This document shows, in pieces, positions 3,842 through 64,000 of a stretch of DNA of 64,000 nt. The notes below the pieces were generated by a model, which had not been told where the DNA came from, ran no database searches, and saw nothing but the letters and a program-made list of their open reading frames with translations. Both the position numbers and the translations under genes were made by a program. Position 1 is the stretch's first letter. Each line of letters opens with the position of its first letter. Source of the stretch: Arthrobacter sp. UM1 (GTDB taxonomy: Bacteria > Actinomycetota > Actinomycetes > Actinomycetales > Micrococcaceae); the NCBI RefSeq assembly GCF_020483305.1, contig NZ_JACWAB010000004.1, positions 1 through 64,000 on the forward strand. Reading direction: 5' to 3'.

Positions 3842-4282
3842 GGCTGCCTCTCTGACGGCGGTTGTGGTGTCCGGGTGTGTGTCGGCGGTCTGGCGGTTCG
3901 GGCCGGGGGCCGGGTGTGGCGGCTTGGTCGGGTGCGTTTCTGTCGCGGTTGCGCGGGTGCGTCGCTGTTGCGGCTGCGCGGGTGCGGTGGCGTTTCGGCT
4001 GCGCGGGTGCGGTGGCATTGCGGGACTGGGTGGCGTCGGCGTCCTTCGGGCCCGAACCGAGTCGAAGTGAACCGATGCGGCTCCGAGCCTTCCAGGCTGA
4101 CGCCTGCTGGCACCCCTCACGCTACTCCGTCCGAGGCCATCCGTCAGGAGTGGTCTGATCTGCACCCGTTTCCGCTCACTCCGCCGCCCTCCCCCGCCTC
4201 GTCTCTTTCCCCTCCCCCTCCTGCCCTGTCCCACTCGCACCCGTTTCCGAGCGCCTCCGCCCGGGCACCCCCGGTTCCGAGC
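3842..4282. repeat. Gene-free, repeat-rich region with GGGTGCG-type motifs
   Basis: No gene is supported. From 3935 to 4020 the unit GGCTGCGCGGGTGCG and variants recur in direct orientation. From 4150 on, the opposite-strand form (GCACCCGTTTCCGAGCGCCTC) appears several times. The section is lower in GC around 4060-4150. It carries the same GGGTGC/GCACCC caps as the palindromes elsewhere in the window. The DUF4375 promoter must lie near 3842-3900, but no clear boxes are seen. Confidence 0.6.
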
Positions 4283-4406
4283 GCCTCTGCGGACCACACC
4301 CGTTTCTGCTCAAAAACCCGCTCGGAAACGGGTGTATTCGCCTGAAACCGGGTGTGGTGGCGAAAACGGGTGTGGAACAAGAGCTGCGGCACGCACGGTC
4401 CGCGTC

Positions 4407-4436
4407 TTGATGGCCCGAACGCAGCCGTTGGATACT
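4407..4436 (+). promoter_or_regulatory. Promoter of 78-aa gene, copy 1
   Basis: TTGATG (4407-4412), an 18-bp spacer and GATACT (4431-4436). The ATG follows 9 nt later without a ribosome-binding site, consistent with a leaderless or nearly leaderless mRNA. Confidence 0.6.
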
Positions 4437-4445
4437 TAGGGCGAC

Positions 4446-4682
4446 ATGTTTGCGCTGAATCTGCCTGAAGTCCTCGCCCTCCTTGTGTGGGCAATCGGCG
4501 TCGGCTTCATGGCGCACCGATTCGCCCAGGCCAGGAACGGCTGGAACCTCGCAGCACTGGTCGTAGCGGTCCTCGTGCCCCTCGCCGGTGCGGCTGCGGC
4601 CGTCGTCGTCGGGTGCCGGAGGGCCATCCGTGCCGTGAGAGCCGCCCGGGACGACGCAAACCGGACAGTGGCACCTCGCTAG
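4446..4682 (+). CDS. Small hypothetical membrane protein, copy 1
   Basis: A 78-aa protein with two predicted membrane helices (residues ~6-24 and ~33-56) separated by the short polar turn HRFAQARNGWN, and a basic C-terminal tail (CRRAIRAVRAARDDANR) likely in the cytoplasm. I do not recognise the family. Coding status is supported by its own promoter, codon use like the genome (G/C in third positions) and perfect conservation of the protein in the second copy. No catalytic motif is visible. Confidence 0.65.
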   Translation: MFALNLPEVLALLVWAIGVGFMAHRFAQARNGWNLAALVVAVLVPLAGAAAAVVVGCRRAIRAVRAARDDANRTVAPR

Positions 4683-4992
4683 CAGGCCCAAGGCAGCCGA
4701 AGCGCGTCTGCACCCGCTTATCGGCTTGACCGCACCCGCTTCCGCTCACGCCCGCCAATCGGAACCCGTTTCCGAGCGCCTCCGCAGAACCGCACCCGAT
4801 GCTGACGTGCCTCCGCCCAGCCACACCCAGTTCCGAGCACCGCCGCCCTGGCACACCCGGTTCCGAGCACCTCTGCGGACCACACCCGTTTCTGCTCAAA
4901 AACCCGCTCGGAAACGGGTGTATTCGCCTGAAACCGGGTGTGGTGGCGAAAACGGGTGTGGAACGAGAGCTGCGGCACGCACGGTCCGCGTC

Positions 4993-5022
4993 TTGATGGC
5001 CCGAACGCAGCCGTTGGATACT
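4993..5022 (+). promoter_or_regulatory. Promoter of 78-aa gene, copy 2
   Basis: Same boxes as copy 1 (TTGATG, 18 bp, GATACT). The bases between the -10 box and the ATG differ slightly (TAGAGCGTC instead of TAGGGCGAC). Confidence 0.6.
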
Positions 5023-5031
5023 TAGAGCGTC

Positions 5032-5268
5032 ATGTTTGCGCTGAATCTGCCTGAAGTCCTCGCCCTCCTTGTGTGGGCAATCGGCGTCGGCTTCATGGCG
5101 CACCGATTCGCCCAGGCCAGGAACGGCTGGAACCTCGCAGCACTGGTCGTAGCGGTCCTCGTGCCCCTCGCCGGTGCGGCTGCGGCCGTCGTCGTCGGGT
5201 GCCGGAGGGCCATCCGTGCCGTGAGAGCCGCCCGGGACGACGCAAACCGGACAGTGGCACCTCGCTAG
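5032..5268 (+). CDS. Small hypothetical membrane protein, copy 2
   Basis: Encodes exactly the same 78 residues as the gene at 4446-4682, in the second unit of the tandem duplication. Two membrane helices and a basic tail are predicted; the function is unknown. Both copies keep their promoter, so both are probably expressed. Identity at the DNA level as well as the protein level means the duplication is young, and by itself says nothing about selection. Confidence 0.65.
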   Translation: MFALNLPEVLALLVWAIGVGFMAHRFAQARNGWNLAALVVAVLVPLAGAAAAVVVGCRRAIRAVRAARDDANRTVAPR

Positions 5269-5525
5269 CAGGCCCAAGGCAGCCGAAGCGCGTCTGCACC
5301 CGCTTTTCGGCTTGACCCGCACCCGCTTCCGCTCACGCCCGCCAATCGGAACCCGTTTCCGAGCGCCTCCGCAGAACCGCACCCGATTCTGACGTGCCTC
5401 CGCCCAGCCGCACCCAGTTCCGAGCACCGCCGCCCTGGCACACCCGGTTCCGAGCACCTCTGCGGACCACACCCGTTCCTGCTCAAAAACCCGCTCGGAA
5501 ACGGGTGTATTCGCCTGAAACCGGG

Positions 5526-5857
5526 TGCGATGGCGAAAACGGGTGCTGCGGCGAATGCGGGTGCTGCGGTGAACGACGAGGGGTACGGATAACCGTTGAA
5601 GGACGGCACCTCTGGGCGGGGATCGCCACAGGGCAGCACGGGCTGGGCCCGTCACGTCCGGCTTACGGCAGATCGCGACGACGGTGGCCCGCCGGACCGC
5701 CCCGCGCCCGTCCCAAAACCCATCCCCCAGCCTCCTCAATTACTTGAAGGTTGAAATAAATCAGGGGACACTCTTGTTAGGGTCAGTGAAAGACGCGGCA
5801 GGCCGTGCCAGGACGGCGCGCATTCCCACCGCCGCGACGACGACGAAAGGTCTTGAC
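5526..5857 (+). other. Intergenic leader of the gene at 5858
   Basis: No gene is seen. Bases 5526-5580 hold the degraded tail of the third repeat copy (GCGAAAACGGGTGC, GCGAATGCGGGTGC). Around 5740-5785 the DNA becomes AT-rich with TTGAAA at 5751 and TAGGGT at 5778, a possible promoter with an overlong 21-bp spacer. A ribosome-binding site GAAAGG lies 5845-5850, before the ATG at 5858. Confidence 0.45.
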
Positions 5858-9140: not shown

Positions 9141-9987
9141 GGGCTCCCCTTCCGAGAGTGAGGGCGAGCCGCTCGGCGGTCCGCTCGCCGAAGACCTCCG
9201 CGAGCGCGGGGTGGCCGATGGCGGCCCGCGGGGCGTCGTCCACGAGGACCGCGCCCTTGACCACGCAGAGGCGAGTGGAGTGCTCGGCGGCGTGGTGGAG
9301 GTCGTGGGTGGTCATGACGATCGCGGTCCCCTCGCCCGCGAGCGAGTGCAGCAGCTCCGTGACGAGCTCCTGCGTGGGCACGTCGACGCCCGTGTAGGGC
9401 TCGTCGAGGAGCAGGAGCGCCGGCTCCAGGCACAGCGCCCTCGCGATGAGCGCCCGCTGCCGCTGCCCGCCGGAGAGCTCCGCGATGGGCCGGCGGCGCA
9501 GGGAGGCGAGCCCCACCCGCTCCAGGGCGGACGCCGCGGCCCGCACGTCCTCCGGCTGCGTGCGGCCGAACACGCCCCAGCGGGGAATGCGCCCGGTGAG
9601 CACGAGATCGCGGACGGTCATGGGGACGTTCCAGTCGACGTCGTGCTTCTGCGGGACGTACCCCACGCGGCGGCGGGCTCGGCGCGGCTCGAGGCCCTCG
9701 ATGCGCACGCGGCCGCGCTCCGGGGCGATCAGCCCGAGCGCGGTGCGCAGGAGCGTGGTCTTCCCCGCGCCGTTCGGGCCGACCAGTCCCAGCACCTCGC
9801 CGGCCTCCAACGCGAGGTCCACGCCGTCCAGCACGCGGCGCCCGCCGAGGCTCACGGAGACGCCCTCGACGTCGAGGACGGAACGCGGCTCGGCCGCCGG
9901 GCGGGGGCTCGGCCGGGCGGCCGCGTTCTGGGGACCTGCGTTCTGGGCGGCCTCGTTCTGAGCGCCCGCGTTCTGAGCGCCCGTCAC
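9127..9987 (-). CDS. Anchored-repeat-type metal ABC transporter, ATP-binding protein
   Basis: A 286-aa ABC ATPase. Walker A GPNGAGKTT (~70-78), the metal-transporter Q-loop sequence VGYVPQKHDVDWN, signature LSGGQRQRA, Walker B LLLLDEPYTG and the switch H in VMTTHDLHHAAEHS are all present. The N-terminal ~35 residues are an unusual tract of imperfect repeats (AQN/PQN with Ala). The GTG at 9987 has a strong GAGGAGGGG site and overlaps the preceding gene by four bases (GTGA). It energises the permease encoded next. Confidence 0.92.
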   Translation of the reverse strand: MTGAQNAGAQNEAAQNAGPQNAAARPSPRPAAEPRSVLDVEGVSVSLGGRRVLDGVDLALEAGEVLGLVGPNGAGKTTLLRTALGLIAPERGRVRIEGLEPRRARRRVGYVPQKHDVDWNVPMTVRDLVLTGRIPRWGVFGRTQPEDVRAAASALERVGLASLRRRPIAELSGGQRQRALIARALCLEPALLLLDEPYTGVDVPTQELVTELLHSLAGEGTAIVMTTHDLHHAAEHSTRLCVVKGAVLVDDAPRAAIGHPALAEVFGERTAERLALTLGRGAHAGL

Positions 9988-16180: not shown

Positions 16181-16204
16181 CGCCGCCCGATACGGCCCGC
16201 CCCC

Positions 16205-16330
16205 GCTTGCGCACCCGGTACCCCCGCTTGCGCACCCGGTACCCCCGCTTGCGCACCCGGTACCCGCGCTTGCACACCCGGTACCCGCGCTTGCGCACCC
16301 GGTACCCGCGCTTGCGCACCCTCTCTTGTC
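16205..16330 (+). repeat. Six 21-bp tandem repeats
   Basis: Units begin with GCTTGCGCACCCGGTACCC at 16205, 16226, 16247, 16268, 16289 and 16310, exactly 21 bp apart. The first units end in CC and later ones in GC. The last unit loses the GGTACCC part and turns directly into the left arm of a long palindrome. There are no spacers, so this is not a CRISPR array. Confidence 0.95.
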
Positions 16331-16592: not shown

Positions 16593-18002
16593 ATGCCGAG
16601 CTTCACCTGGTCGCACTCGCTCCCCCAGAGCCCTGAGACGGTCTACACGTGGATGTCGCGGCCCGGGGCGTTCACCAGACTCGTCCCCGATTTCATGGGC
16701 ACGCCCGTCCAGGAGCCCACGGACGGACTGCGCACTGGCTGCGAGAGCCGCCTGGCGCTCTCCCCGTCTTTCCTCCCGTTCGGCGGCGGCCTGCCCTGGA
16801 CCGCGCGACACGTCCAGTACAGCTTCGCCCCCTCGGGCCAGGGCACGTTCACGGACGTCCAGGAGTCAGGCCCGTTCGCCTCGTGGGAGCACCGCCACCG
16901 GATCGAGGAGGACGGACACGGCGGAACCCGCATGCTCGACGAAGTCACCTACTCCCTCCCCCTCGGCGCTGAGCGGATCCCGAGCGTGCAGTCACTCGTC
17001 GAGGCCAGCCTCCGCCGCACGTTCGAGTTCCGCTCGCGGCGCCTCACCGAGGACCTGGCGTTCCATGAGCAGCACCCGGAGAAGAAGACCTTTCTCCTCA
17101 CAGGCAGCACCGGACTCGTGGGCACGCAGCTGGCCGCGTTCCTCCGCTCCGGCGGGCACCGTGTCATCACGCTGCACCGCCGCGACGGGGAGTCCGAGCA
17201 GATCTCCGAGGACGCCTGGTCCTGGGATCCCTCCTCGGGGACTCTGGACACCGCGGTGTTCGGCCCCGTGGACGCCGTCGTGCACCTTGGCGGCGCGCCG
17301 CTCATGGGGCGCTTCACGGAGAAGCACAAGGAAGAGGTGCGCAGCTCCCGCGTGGAGTCCACGCGGACTCTGACGTCCGCGCTCAGCCGGCACCGGGGCC
17401 GCAACCGCTCCAACCCGGAGGTGCTCGTCACCGCCTCGGCGAGCGGGTACTACGGAGCCGCGGCGGGGCTGGTCGACGAGGAGAGCCCAGCCGGAGAGGA
17501 CTTCCTCGCCTCCGTCTGCAAGGAGTGGGAAGGCGAAGGCCGCAAGGCCGAGTTCGTGGGGGTCCGGACGGTCCAGGTCCGCACGGGGATCGTGCTCAGC
17601 GCCCGCGGAGGCATGCTCGCGCTGCAGTCCCCGCAGTTCGCTGCGGGCGCCGGCGGGCCGATCGGAGACGGCTCGATGCGGCTGCCGTGGGTCTCCCTCG
17701 ACGACCTCGTCCGGATCTACGCGTTCTCAGCGCTTGACCGCAGCGTGCACGGACCGGTCAACGCAGCCGGACCGGAGCAGGCGACGCAGAAGGAGTATGC
17801 CGCGACGCTCGGCTCCGTCCTCCACCGCCCTGCTGTCATTCCGACGCCGAAGGCCGCCATGGCCGCCGTCCTCGGCCGCGAGGGCGCGGAGCAGACGGTC
17901 CTCGCGGACACGGGACTCGAGACGGACAAGCTGCGCGGCCTGGGATTCGAATTCACCTCGCCCACGCTGGAGGACGCGCTGCGCCGTACGCTGGGGCGGT
18001 AG
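16593..18002 (+). CDS. TIGR01777 family epimerase with N-terminal SRPBCC domain
   Basis: A 469-aa two-domain protein. Residues 1-~150 resemble the SRPBCC/cyclase-like domain (SPETVYTWMSRPGAFTRLVPDF). Residues ~160-469 are the TIGR01777/YfcH SDR domain: GSTGLVGTQLA nucleotide motif, VDAVVHLGGAPLMGRFT, TASASGYYG with the conserved Tyr, LPWVSLDDLVRIYAF, and a C-terminal DUF1731 region. Fusion with SRPBCC is usual in actinobacteria. The reaction is unknown. The stop codon is the left edge of a 16-bp direct repeat that reappears at the end of the ceramidase gene. Confidence 0.92.
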   Translation: MPSFTWSHSLPQSPETVYTWMSRPGAFTRLVPDFMGTPVQEPTDGLRTGCESRLALSPSFLPFGGGLPWTARHVQYSFAPSGQGTFTDVQESGPFASWEHRHRIEEDGHGGTRMLDEVTYSLPLGAERIPSVQSLVEASLRRTFEFRSRRLTEDLAFHEQHPEKKTFLLTGSTGLVGTQLAAFLRSGGHRVITLHRRDGESEQISEDAWSWDPSSGTLDTAVFGPVDAVVHLGGAPLMGRFTEKHKEEVRSSRVESTRTLTSALSRHRGRNRSNPEVLVTASASGYYGAAAGLVDEESPAGEDFLASVCKEWEGEGRKAEFVGVRTVQVRTGIVLSARGGMLALQSPQFAAGAGGPIGDGSMRLPWVSLDDLVRIYAFSALDRSVHGPVNAAGPEQATQKEYAATLGSVLHRPAVIPTPKAAMAAVLGREGAEQTVLADTGLETDKLRGLGFEFTSPTLEDALRRTLGR

Positions 18003-18016
18003 ACCCCCTACGCCCC
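18001..18016 (+). repeat. 16-bp direct repeat, left copy
   Basis: AGACCCCCTACGCCCC, including the last two bases of the epimerase stop. The identical 16 bases recur at 18919-18934. Together they bound a 902-bp insert. Confidence 0.85.
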
Positions 18017-18095
18017 AGGGCTGAAGCCCTTCCGCTGGACGGCAGCGAACCAGTCAGGCAGCGCGGGGCCCTACCGGGGCTCCACCAGATCGAGA

Positions 18096-18467
18096 TCACG
18101 TCAAGAGCACGTGGGCGATCAGCTGATCCAACCGCCTCACGTCGACTCCTTTGCCGACCTTGATCTTCATACGACCGGCGCGCGTCCACAGTTCCAGCTC
18201 GGCATTCAAGTCAAGCGTCCCCGCGTTCTCGCTCGACCACATGTTGATCGAGGAGTAAGGGACTGAATACATTTCGACCTTTTTGCCGGTGAGCCCTTGT
18301 GCGTCCCTCACGATGAGGCGCTTGTTCGTGAAGACAGCGGTGTCACGGAAGGTCTTGAAGGCCGCGATCGGCTCTTCTCCGCGAACCAGGACAGTTCCGA
18401 TGTCTGGGGGAATCGGCGCCTCAGACACGAAGGTCCATGCAACAACGTGAGACAGTTCTGCGGTCAT
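18096..18467 (-). CDS. PH domain-containing protein
   Basis: A 123-aa protein that is essentially one bacterial PH-like domain (bPH). It shows the strand series RGEEPIAAFKTFRDTAVFTNKRLIVRD, then KVEMYSVPYSSINMWSSEN, LDLNAELELWTRAGRMKIKVGKG and a C-terminal helix VRRLDQLIAHVLL. The FTNKRLIVRD motif is the family hallmark. The function of these proteins is unknown. Start at 18467: the -10 box TAACAT ends six bases upstream, giving a leaderless mRNA. It lies inside the direct-repeat-bounded, lower-GC cassette, 44 bp after the RHH gene. Confidence 0.85.
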   Translation of the reverse strand: MTAELSHVVAWTFVSEAPIPPDIGTVLVRGEEPIAAFKTFRDTAVFTNKRLIVRDAQGLTGKKVEMYSVPYSSINMWSSENAGTLDLNAELELWTRAGRMKIKVGKGVDVRRLDQLIAHVLLT

Positions 18468-18473
18468 GGACTC

Positions 18474-18479
18474 ATGTTA
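18474..18479 (-). promoter_or_regulatory. -10 box TAACAT of the PH-domain gene
   Basis: TAACAT on the minus strand, six bases before the ATG at 18467. No ribosome-binding site is present. Confidence 0.45.
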
Positions 18480-18511
18480 GGACGCTCGCGGTTCAGAGTC
18501 ACTCGCCACAT

Positions 18512-18856
18512 TCAGTCTGCGTGGCGCAGACCGGCGAGGATGAGTTCGCGGACGGTCTCCGACTTCTGCTTGCCCCTGGAGTCAGCCAGTTCTTGAATAG
18601 CCCGATCCATCTCCTGCGGGACACGCACGCGAAGCATCGGCGAGGCCCCCTTGCCCCTGTCCCGCGAACGCTCTTTGCTGGGACGCCCCTGTCGGATCAG
18701 CTTCTCAGGGTCTGCAGTGCCGAACCACTCCATGAATTGGGCTTCCGTCACACGTCGGGCTTCTTCTCCGACAAGCGCCGGACCTGTTTCCGTGAATTCA
18801 CCCCGTTCGGCCGAATCGGCCATCTCGGCGAAGTACTGCTCGTCCCAGCTGCTCAT
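18512..18856 (-). CDS. Ribbon-helix-helix protein, antitoxin-like
   Basis: A 114-aa protein. The C-terminal ~45 residues (PMLRVRVPQEMDRAIQELADSRGKQKSETVRELILAGL) are a ribbon-helix-helix DNA-binding domain of the CopG/Arc type. The N-terminal ~60 residues are acidic and helical, with VTEAQFMEWFG and a basic RQGRPSKERSRDRGKG hinge, a layout common in antitoxins. No toxin gene is recognisable next to it unless the PH-domain protein plays that part, which would be unprecedented. The ATG at 18856 has no clear ribosome-binding site; a -10-like TACACT lies ~25 bases upstream. Confidence 0.75.
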   Translation of the reverse strand: MSSWDEQYFAEMADSAERGEFTETGPALVGEEARRVTEAQFMEWFGTADPEKLIRQGRPSKERSRDRGKGASPMLRVRVPQEMDRAIQELADSRGKQKSETVRELILAGLRHAD

Positions 18857-18918
18857 CGAATTCGTTTGAGACACCCGTAAAGTGTACCCCACTTTTCAGG
18901 CGCAGGGGGGCAGCGGCA

Positions 18919-18934
18919 AGACCCCCTACGCCCC
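18919..18934 (+). repeat. 16-bp direct repeat, right copy
   Basis: AGACCCCCTACGCCCC, identical to 18001-18016. It contains the ceramidase stop codon (minus strand, 18926-18928). The left copy holds the same CTA trinucleotide at the same place. Confidence 0.85.
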
Positions 18935-21097
18935 CACCGTGAACGGCCGCGAGGTGCCGGTGTACGCCGTGACCTTGCCGTTCCAGCCGTTCTTCCAGTC
19001 GCCGGTCTGGACCAGTCGGTACGTGCCCGCGGGCGTGCCGGGCCGGATGCGCCACTCCACGGTGCAGCGGGAGAAGGAGGCGCCCTCGCGCTCCCACCGG
19101 TAGACCGTGTCCCAGTCGTGGTCGTCGAGGACGTCCTTCCAGGCGCCGCCCTCCTGTTTCTGGACCTTGAGGAAGGTGCCCATCGTCCGGAAGTCGTTCT
19201 TCGGGTGTCCGCCGCGGAACACCGCCGTGGCGATGCCGCCCGGCCGGTAGGAGGCCTTCGGCTGTTCGAGCACCTGGCCGAACGTCTGCCCTGCCGGCTT
19301 GTCGTCGAGCACCACGCCCGGGCGCGAGGGCGGCCGCTTCCCCGAGTCCCGCGGGGTGACGCCCGGCGTCGCGGCGCCGCTCGCGAGGCCCTTGGCCAGC
19401 GCGTCGTACTCCTGGAGCAGCGCGCCGAGCTGGTGCGGCCCGAACTCGGTCGAGGCGCCCTCGTAGTACTGCTTTCCGTACTCCTCCGGCGTCGTGATGT
19501 ACCCCATGTACTGGTTGGAGAGGCCGGCGACGACGGCGTGCGTCACCCCCGTCCCCTTGAGGGCGTCGAGGACCTGCTTGCGGATGCGGCGGCCGGACAT
19601 CGTCGTCGCCTCCCCGGGCACCGCAATGACGGCGAGCTGGCCGATCCGCATGACCTGCACGGGAATCTGGAGGGGCGCCCAGCCGAACTTGCCGTCCGGG
19701 AGGAGGATCGCCTTGGCGCCGTGGGCCGGGTCGTCCGCGCCGACGAGCTTGCCGACCGCGGAGAAGGCCAGCCGCACGAGTGTGCCCTCGGCAGCCGGGG
19801 CCGGCTTGTTGCCCGCGTTGGTGGCGTTGCCGAGGGAGTCGCCGGCGTCGATGACGGAGAACGAGCCCTTGGTCATGCCGTACCCGATGCCGGGGATGTT
19901 CGAGGGGCCGTTCGGGGCGCCGGCGGCGAAGCTCCAGCCGCGGGCCGGCACAGGCAGCCTCTGGTCCCCTGCACCGCCGGTGAAGGGTGCCTTGACCGTG
20001 TAGCTGCCGAAGTCCGCCCAGCGGCCGCGGACCGCCACCGGACCGGAGAGAGGGGTCCCGGGCGCGTTGAAGAGCTCCACCGCCTTGCCGAGCTGCGCGC
20101 GGCCGTCCACCTCCACGTTGATCCACTCGTCCGCCGAGCCCTGGAACCCCGGCGAGGAGAAGGAGTTGCCCTGGACGCTGACCACGTCCCCCTCGTCGGC
20201 CTGGGCGAACGCCGCCACGAAGCCCTTGGGGTCCTTGGGGTGGGCGCCCATGCGCTGCTCGAAGAAGTACTGGGCGTACCCCTTGTTGTCGCCGCTGAGG
20301 AGGGTGTTCTTGAGGGAGAAGCTCGTGCCGTGGATGGCGAACCAGTTGATGAGTCCCCAGGGCGTGCCGTCCGCGGCGGTCAGCTTGAGCTGGACCACCT
20401 CCTCGTTGACCGTGGTGGGGAAGCTCGCGGCGTCCTTGTTGGCACGGTACGCGGGCAGCGCGCGGTTCTTCGTCACGCCGGACAGGGTGCCGGTCTGCAG
20501 CTCCATGCGACCCGGCTCGAGGTTGGCGTGCGCCAGGGCGATCGCCTCGACGATCCCGGTCACGGCCGCCTGCAGGTTGCGCTCCTCGTAGCCGTACCCG
20601 GCGGCGTCCGCGCCGGCGATCTGGTACAGGGTGTCGTGCGACTGCCCCGCGTTGGCGCTGTGGGTGTGCGTGGCGGAGATGCAGACGTTCTCGTCCGTGT
20701 AGAGCCCGCCGAACCTGGTCTGGAGGGCGGCGACGACGCCCAGCTTCACCGACTGGAAGACGGCGCCGAGGTCCACGCTCACGAAGACCACGCGGTCCTT
20801 GCCGCCGTTCGAGCCGATGACGAACGCGTGGGCGAAGAGCCTCTCCTGCAGGCCGGTCATCGACTGGCCGGCGGCGTAGCCGAAGGACCCGGTCTCGGCG
20901 ACGGCGCCCGTGATGTCGTACAGGCCGCAGCCGATGAGGTACTCGTCCCCGGCGCCCCCGGCCGTCGCGGGCGCCTCCGGACCGCGGCTCGGCGAGGCGA
21001 GGGCCGGTGCGCCCTGGGCGAGCTGGGCTCCGGCGGCGAGGGCCGAAGCCCCGGCGAACTGGCCGAAGCGGCGGCGGGAGAATGAGGAGCGGGCCAT
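18926..21097 (-). CDS. Neutral/alkaline non-lysosomal ceramidase, Tat-exported
   Basis: A 723-aa enzyme that hydrolyses the N-acyl bond of ceramide to sphingosine and fatty acid. The Tat signal SRRRFGQFAGASALA is at residues 6-20. The catalytic domain follows: GCGLYDITGAVAE near the N-terminus, the zinc-ligand segment ISATHTHSANAG, LINWFAIHGTSF, and the nucleophile region LSGDNKGYAQ. The C-terminal ~160 residues are an immunoglobulin-like domain ending in TSRPFTVGA. Length and order match secreted bacterial ceramidases. The ATG has a GAAAGG site. It is divergent from the acyl-CoA ligase, which could use the released fatty acid; that link is inferred. The stop lies inside a direct repeat. Confidence 0.93.
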   Translation of the reverse strand: MARSSFSRRRFGQFAGASALAAGAQLAQGAPALASPSRGPEAPATAGGAGDEYLIGCGLYDITGAVAETGSFGYAAGQSMTGLQERLFAHAFVIGSNGGKDRVVFVSVDLGAVFQSVKLGVVAALQTRFGGLYTDENVCISATHTHSANAGQSHDTLYQIAGADAAGYGYEERNLQAAVTGIVEAIALAHANLEPGRMELQTGTLSGVTKNRALPAYRANKDAASFPTTVNEEVVQLKLTAADGTPWGLINWFAIHGTSFSLKNTLLSGDNKGYAQYFFEQRMGAHPKDPKGFVAAFAQADEGDVVSVQGNSFSSPGFQGSADEWINVEVDGRAQLGKAVELFNAPGTPLSGPVAVRGRWADFGSYTVKAPFTGGAGDQRLPVPARGWSFAAGAPNGPSNIPGIGYGMTKGSFSVIDAGDSLGNATNAGNKPAPAAEGTLVRLAFSAVGKLVGADDPAHGAKAILLPDGKFGWAPLQIPVQVMRIGQLAVIAVPGEATTMSGRRIRKQVLDALKGTGVTHAVVAGLSNQYMGYITTPEEYGKQYYEGASTEFGPHQLGALLQEYDALAKGLASGAATPGVTPRDSGKRPPSRPGVVLDDKPAGQTFGQVLEQPKASYRPGGIATAVFRGGHPKNDFRTMGTFLKVQKQEGGAWKDVLDDHDWDTVYRWEREGASFSRCTVEWRIRPGTPAGTYRLVQTGDWKNGWNGKVTAYTGTSRPFTVGA

Positions 21098-32710: not shown

Positions 32711-32950
32711 TCAGCGCAGCAGATCGAGGTAGCGGGATCGTGCTTTCATCGCATGAATGACGAGCTGATTGCCGCTGTCGAAGGTGAGAACAACCAATTC
32801 GAGAACTCGTCCGTGAGTATCGAATCCGAGGATGAACTGTTTGGCGGGCATGTCCTCATCGGGTTCGCTCTCGAAGACGCGGTGCTCGGCGGCGCAGAGG
32901 ATGTCCGCTTCACTGAGGCCGTGCTTGAGCGCCGAGTGATTGATCTTCAC
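32711..32950 (-). CDS. Putative toxin of a toxin-antitoxin pair (BrnT-like small protein)
   Basis: A 79-aa protein of a type often found next to RHH antitoxins and annotated as a toxin. It has MKINHSALKHGLSEADI, an acidic middle with DEDMPAKQFILGFDTHGR, LELVVLTFD, then VIHAMKARSRYLDLL. The His-rich start, the GFD...GRVLE strand and the terminal HAMKAR helix recall BrnT-type RNases of the RelE fold. The ATG overlaps the antitoxin stop by four bases. Lower GC than neighbours suggests recent arrival. Toxic activity is not shown. Confidence 0.75.
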   Translation of the reverse strand: MKINHSALKHGLSEADILCAAEHRVFESEPDEDMPAKQFILGFDTHGRVLELVVLTFDSGNQLVIHAMKARSRYLDLLR

Positions 32951-33195
32951 GCCGTGTAGGAGTAAAGAGCAGCGCGAATTGCGCCAGAGCGGGTCAGGTG
33001 CTCCCGTGCAGCACGCTCGTCTACTGCGGCAAGCAGGGCCGCATCGATTCGCACCGGCACAATCCGCGTACCCCCAGTCCCCAGGGGTTTGCGGCCGCGC
33101 TTGCGCACCTGTTCGGGGTCATAGCCGTGCTCGGCTTCCTCGGCCCACTTCTGGATCATCTCGTCGGTGACGGGGGTCCCGTTGATTCTCTCCAT
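32947..33195 (-). CDS. Ribbon-helix-helix antitoxin
   Basis: An 82-aa protein. The N-terminal ~40 residues (PVTDEMIQKWAEEAEHGYDPEQ) form an acidic arm that in such proteins wraps the toxin. The C-terminal ~40 (IVPVRIDAALLAAVDERAAREHLTRSGAIRAALYSY) are a CopG-type RHH DNA-binding domain. Start taken at ATG 33195, six bases after the -10 box TACGAT; an in-frame TTG at 33201 is less likely. It is probably autoregulated through the palindrome in its promoter. Confidence 0.82.
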   Translation of the reverse strand: MERINGTPVTDEMIQKWAEEAEHGYDPEQVRKRGRKPLGTGGTRIVPVRIDAALLAAVDERAAREHLTRSGAIRAALYSYTA

Positions 33196-33201
33196 GCCCA
33201 A

Positions 33202-63835: not shown

Positions 63836-63894
63836 CTTGCGCACCCTCTGGTGTCAGGATTCCGCCCGAATACTGACACCAGAGGGTGCTCAAG
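63836..63894. repeat. Palindromic element, second copy of 16311 type
   Basis: Imperfect palindrome with the same ends (CTTGCGCACCCTCT ... AGAGGGTGCTCAAG) and CAGGATT-like inner arm as 16311-16369. Three arm bases differ from that copy and are matched by complementary changes in the other arm (CTT/AAG there, GGT/ACC here); two positions are unpaired. Confidence 0.88.
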
Positions 63895-64000
63895 CCCAGG
63901 AACAGGGTGCGCAAGCCTCGCGGACGGACCGCTGAGCCCAGGAACAGGGTGCGCAAGCTCAGCGGACGGACGCACAGTCCGGGAACAGGCTGCTCAGCCC
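63893..64000 (+). repeat. ~44-bp tandem repeats at window end
   Basis: AGCCCAGGAACAGGGTGCGC occurs at 63893 and 63937, each followed by AAGC, a TCGCGG- or TCAGCGG-type stretch and GACGGAC; a degraded third copy (AGTCCGGGAACAGGCTGCTC) follows. The array continues past the window edge. No gene is seen from 63562 to 64000. Confidence 0.8.

Follow-up and report, generated by a model that had tools for sequence, protein, structure and literature searches.

How did two genes of low GC content come to lie between a complete epimerase gene and a complete ceramidase gene of Arthrobacter sp. UM1, and what do the identical short repeats at their two ends record? We examined the locus within a window of 64,000 nucleotides (positions 1 to 64,000 of contig NZ_JACWAB010000004.1, assembly GCF_020483305.1), starting from a preliminary description that had proposed a 918-bp mobile or captured cassette at this site. 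The analysis points to a small islet of foreign DNA, perhaps one end of an integrated virus that has since been trimmed, and not to an active mobile element of a new kind.

Composition and flanks of the islet

The features of the locus are collected in Table 1. As had been described, the insert carries a PH-domain gene of the bPH_1 family (PF08000) and an RHH gene and nothing else; both are on the minus strand. Neither of them is a recombinase, in agreement with the preliminary description, and no integrase, repressor, structural or other phage gene was found in the islet. A PADLOC search gave no match. The low GC content of the insert was also borne out, set against 70.6 ± 4.0% (sd) for 918-bp stretches, and falls within the lowest 2.5% of such stretches in a 373-kb genome sample. 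The third codon positions follow the same trend, with a GC3 of 74% in the PH gene and 70% in the RHH gene compared with 91% in the epimerase gene and 97% in the ceramidase gene, both of which are complete. No inverted repeat links the two ends of the islet and there are no long terminal inverted repeats. In this the islet differs from an IS element or MITE.

Table 1. Features of the islet and its flanks, in window coordinates.
Feature	Position	Strand	Remarks
Left flank, Epimerase/DUF1731 gene	16593..18002	+	3' end intact
Left 16-bp repeat	18001..18016	.	Begins with the final two bases of the epimerase stop codon
Small hairpin GGGC-TGAA-GCCC	18012..18045	+	Just within the left repeat; no T run; putative terminator
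Lower-GC insert	18017..18918	.	60.6% GC, against 70.6% in the genome sample
bPH_1 (PF08000) gene, 123 aa	18096..18467	-	PHROG family phrog_7115; 79 bp separate its stop from the left repeat
RHH (CopG-type) orphan antitoxin ORF	18512..18892	-	Longest reading starts at 18892
Promoter/operator-like stretch	18876..18895	-	Palindrome AAAGTG-GGGTA-CACTTT overlapping a -10-like TACACT
Right 16-bp repeat	18919..18934	.	Includes the final two ceramidase codons and the stop
Right flank, neutral/alkaline ceramidase gene	18926..21097	-	3' end intact

A unique direct repeat at two gene ends

The 16-bp direct repeat AGACCCCCTACGCCCC is real, with exact copies starting at 18001 and 18919, a spacing of 918 bp and 902 bp of DNA between them. 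It has no further exact copy in the 2.39-Mb assembly (the reversed-pattern control also gave none) and is not itself a long palindrome. Phage collections searched with it returned three matches, all of them unrelated. Its relation to the flanking genes differs in two details from what had been claimed. The right copy does contain the entire stop codon of the ceramidase gene (CTA, 18926-18928), whereas on the left the T of the epimerase TAG (18000-18002) falls outside the repeat. Removal of the insert and one copy would leave five bases between the convergent stops (ACCCC, 18003-18007), not seven.

Other repeats occur in the window. A 586-bp tandem duplication at 4239-5530 is rich in ACCCGTTTCCGAGC-type repeats, and the assembly holds similar ones at C12:83611 and C12:162366. 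Short intergenic tandem repeats of about 21 bp (CGCTTGCGCACCCGGTACCC) are present at 16200-16310, with a similar-looking repeat at 63893-63960.

The junction and the gene pair in other genomes

Searches for the epimerase–ceramidase junction elsewhere were negative. At the DNA level it was found in none of three genomes of the genus. A ceramidase gene is present in 25 of 395 family genomes, where no such epimerase was seen adjoining it (most loci were viewed with 1.5 kb of flank), and a search of genome contigs with the epimerase revealed no epimerase–ceramidase neighbourhood. The two islet genes are patchily distributed, the PH gene being found in 37 of 197 family genomes and 72 of 396 in an order sample, and the RHH gene in 16 and 11 of these, respectively. 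Only one other genome, G059, carries both, and there they lie on separate contigs. The suggestion that the same PH/RHH pair might recur at other loci did not hold, and a two-gene cassette as a unit is not supported, the pair having been found nowhere else.

The PH gene has relatives beside phage integrases

The PH protein matches the bPH_1 profile with 124.7 bits (gathering cut-off 27.7) over almost the whole model. Only about six of the 37 carriers in the family have a copy at least 55% identical to it, and its closest homologues (74% identity) belong to another family. A single clade of the PH copies from the window's family was rejected (AU p = 0.0019), which we take as support and not as proof, the tree set including two long rows, or branches.

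In Min1 the PH gene is the last gene, its stop about 50 bp from the end of the record, and the opposite end of the record carries a tRNA-Arg gene (42-117) and an integrase gene (1-771). About 90 bp lie between the PH stop and the att end that it faces in Min1; in the islet the stop faces the left repeat across 79 bp. Integrase and PH genes are adjacent in ul36, and in five IMG/VR proviruses (L183-L187) a tyrosine integrase lies about 0.1-1.4 kb from the PH gene. In a further IMG/VR sequence (L182) the PH gene ends 3 bp before the contig end, and in L188 and L189 about 3 kb separate the PH gene from an integrase-like gene. The presence of PHb in the lysogeny modules of ul36 and Min1 was already noted by Xu et al. 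2010 (PMC2817789). The islet thus holds phage-related cargo in a phage-like position, with relatives beside an integrase or att in Min1, ul36 and IMG/VR proviruses. Within ±10 kb of about 20 chromosomal PH loci, a six-sequence profile detected no integrase, indicating that PH genes live outside prophages too. Temperate phages generally hold their lysogeny genes close to att, and the context of the PH gene is therefore suggestive, not specific.

The PH gene of G059 (L091 5354-6582) lies after a tRNA-Leu gene, and the two end in nearly the same terminator motif. The repeat around this PH gene proved to be the tRNA-Leu terminator motif, with a third copy nearby at 9853.

A parallel PH gene at another convergent junction

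A second case was found in G098, a genome of the window's own family. Here a minus-strand PH gene (73% identity to the window's where the two align) occupies another convergent junction, with a PhoD-like gene on the plus strand to one side and a minus-strand gene to the other, and is bracketed by 94-bp hairpin repeats that are 96% alike. Two sister species, G304 and G255, have these neighbours in convergent orientation about 90-120 bp apart, with no PH gene between them. The PH gene has therefore been gained in G098 or lost in the sisters, and its rarity in that genus favours a gain.

The hairpins need some care. Palindromic hairpins of about 90 bp stand at gene 3' ends in G098 (L089 6028-6646, L132 5170-6409) and are typical of its genus; neighbouring ones are 93-98% alike in G098 compared with about 70% for the two in its sister G304, which suggests local homogenisation. 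A different G098 locus, one with no insertion, also has neighbouring hairpins that have become alike. This weakens the 94-bp repeats as proof of a duplication at insertion, which they may postdate, while the empty site stands. A hairpin pair at 902 kb in G098 was considered as a second cassette and rejected, as hairpins stand on both sides of the gene in G304 too and there is no insertion.

An antitoxin gene without its toxin

The RHH gene of the islet is an antitoxin gene without its toxin. A small related gene lies directly upstream of RHH in 11-12 of 16 relative loci and is missing in the window. These presumed toxins share the pattern KHGI...FIGP.HGQTDR..EV...FHAM and matched no Pfam family. 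In type II toxin–antitoxin (TA) modules the antitoxin adjoins its toxin; at the islet nothing of a toxin remains. Likelier starts than the longest reading are GTG 18874, at the position of the toxin start in relatives, or ATG 18856. No RHH relative was found in phages and IMG/VR, and plasmids gave two distant matches.

The sequence upstream has been kept. The window and L017 have TACACTTTA at the same spacing, 12 bases ahead of the GTG of the RHH frame in the former and of the toxin ATG in the latter. In the window it overlaps the palindrome AAAGTG-N5-CACTTT. RHH probably represses its own gene, and it may neutralise related toxins. A consensus sigma-70 scan gave no match, and there is no good -35, so that self-repression is something we only infer. 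Orphan antitoxins are a familiar phenomenon, for which an anti-addiction role or an origin as remnants has been suggested (PMC7354431).

The window also holds a second, apparently intact TA-like pair on the minus strand (32711-33201), made up of an RHH-like gene (32947-33201) and, after it, a small gene (32711-32950). The small gene is related to the presumed toxins upstream of RHH in the relatives, with the gene order reversed with respect to theirs, and its protein has a weak DUF4258 match only.

Origin of the islet

We favour, with moderate confidence, the reading that the islet is horizontally acquired and degenerate, that the 16-bp repeats are an integration footprint and that the likeliest source is the end of a phage or integrative element. 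A small piece of foreign DNA would have integrated at the junction of the convergent epimerase and ceramidase genes, leaving the repeats as its mark. Both flanking 3' ends would be intact because junction sequence stands on either side, in the manner of an attL/attR core that lies in the 3' end of a gene. A temperate phage, or another integrative element, would have supplied the islet from one of its ends; this source is likeliest because the PH family adjoins att or integrase in phages and has the same facing and a similar distance to the repeat here. The integrase and the interior of the element may have been lost later or may never have arrived, and the RHH antitoxin would have lost its toxin and kept the toxin-type promoter/operator-like sequence. 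Our confidence is only moderate because no relative was found with an empty epimerase–ceramidase junction. What survives of the proposed 918-bp cassette is the idea that a convergent junction gained foreign DNA, which is supported by the low GC and GC3, the patchy PH distribution and the rejection of a single family clade, the parallel in G098 and the phage context; the two-gene mobile unit is not supported.

Capture without any phage, by homology-assisted or illegitimate recombination or by break-repair copying that duplicated the junction meanwhile, is a tenable but rather unlikely alternative, in which convergent 3' junctions would simply tolerate inserts. The parallel in G098 speaks for it, having no phage genes and a genus-typical hairpin duplicated instead, as does a study of REP-targeted insertions in which the space between convergent genes was argued to be a safe target (PMC1525189). 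Against it stands the geometry of PH gene and repeat, which is like that of phage att ends. In addition, Ku was not found in the Arthrobacter sp. UM1 genome, making Ku-dependent end joining unlikely.

A coincidental repeat, with the low-GC genes having come or arisen between the flanks by some unrelated route, is also unlikely. Repeats of this size are certainly no rarity: 16-bp repeats spaced by 200-3000 bp are at background frequency, and the 373-kb genome sample holds 31 exact direct repeats, 16 bp or longer, at distances of 200-1000 bp, mostly from repeat families. Two random points 0.3-3 kb apart had a 16-mer in common in 36 of 400,000 trials, so that it is the placement, not the length, of the repeat that counts as evidence. 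AGACCCCCTACGCCCC is moreover C-rich and was picked by a reader who had gone through the whole window. What coincidence leaves unexplained is a pair that is unique in the genome and placed at both gene ends, for which the chance is about 1e-4 per junction pair; with about 100 junction pairs per window (our estimate) this becomes about 1%, before correction for the reader's selection. The placement is perhaps more than chance.

It seems doubtful that the window and G098 reflect one general process, in which bPH_1 genes are the cargo of a recurrent, integrase-less gain at convergent 3' junctions that leaves junction sequence on both sides (16 bp in the window, 94 bp in G098). Most improbable is an active mini-element, a PH/RHH cassette mobilised in trans by a recombinase encoded elsewhere: direct repeats do flank both ends and tyrosine recombinase-like genes, some of them maybe Xer, occur elsewhere in the genome sample, but the islet is single-copy and lacks long terminal inverted repeats, the pair is absent elsewhere and AGACCCCCTACGCCCC occurs at no other site.

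Significance and comparison with known systems

On the integration reading, the islet illustrates how a phage-associated PH gene can settle between host genes harmlessly. The window and G098 provide two comparable cases for a direct test of junction duplication, and self-repression and anti-addiction by a lone antitoxin can be studied cleanly in an orphan antitoxin that has kept a toxin-type promoter-like sequence.

Among known systems, the islet resembles a prophage or integrative-element remnant (attL/attR) in its direct repeat at gene 3' ends, its two intact flanking genes and a phage-type PH gene facing the repeat. It differs in that no integrase, repressor or structural gene is left and the 16-mer is a putative att. 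With REP-targeted insertions (PMC1525189) it shares a target between convergent genes, although the window site has neither an IS element nor a REP. The PH protein belongs to the same family as the bPH_1/PHb proteins Min1 gp77, to which it is 64% identical, and ul36 ORF124, yet its gene adjoins an RHH gene and not an integrase. The RHH protein is 37-41% identical to those of type II TA modules with an overlapping upstream toxin gene (G146, G034, G159 and the Kocuria plasmid NZ_AP022835.1). Unlike these modules, the islet has no toxin gene; like the module of L017, it has a TACACTTTA-type sequence before its first gene.
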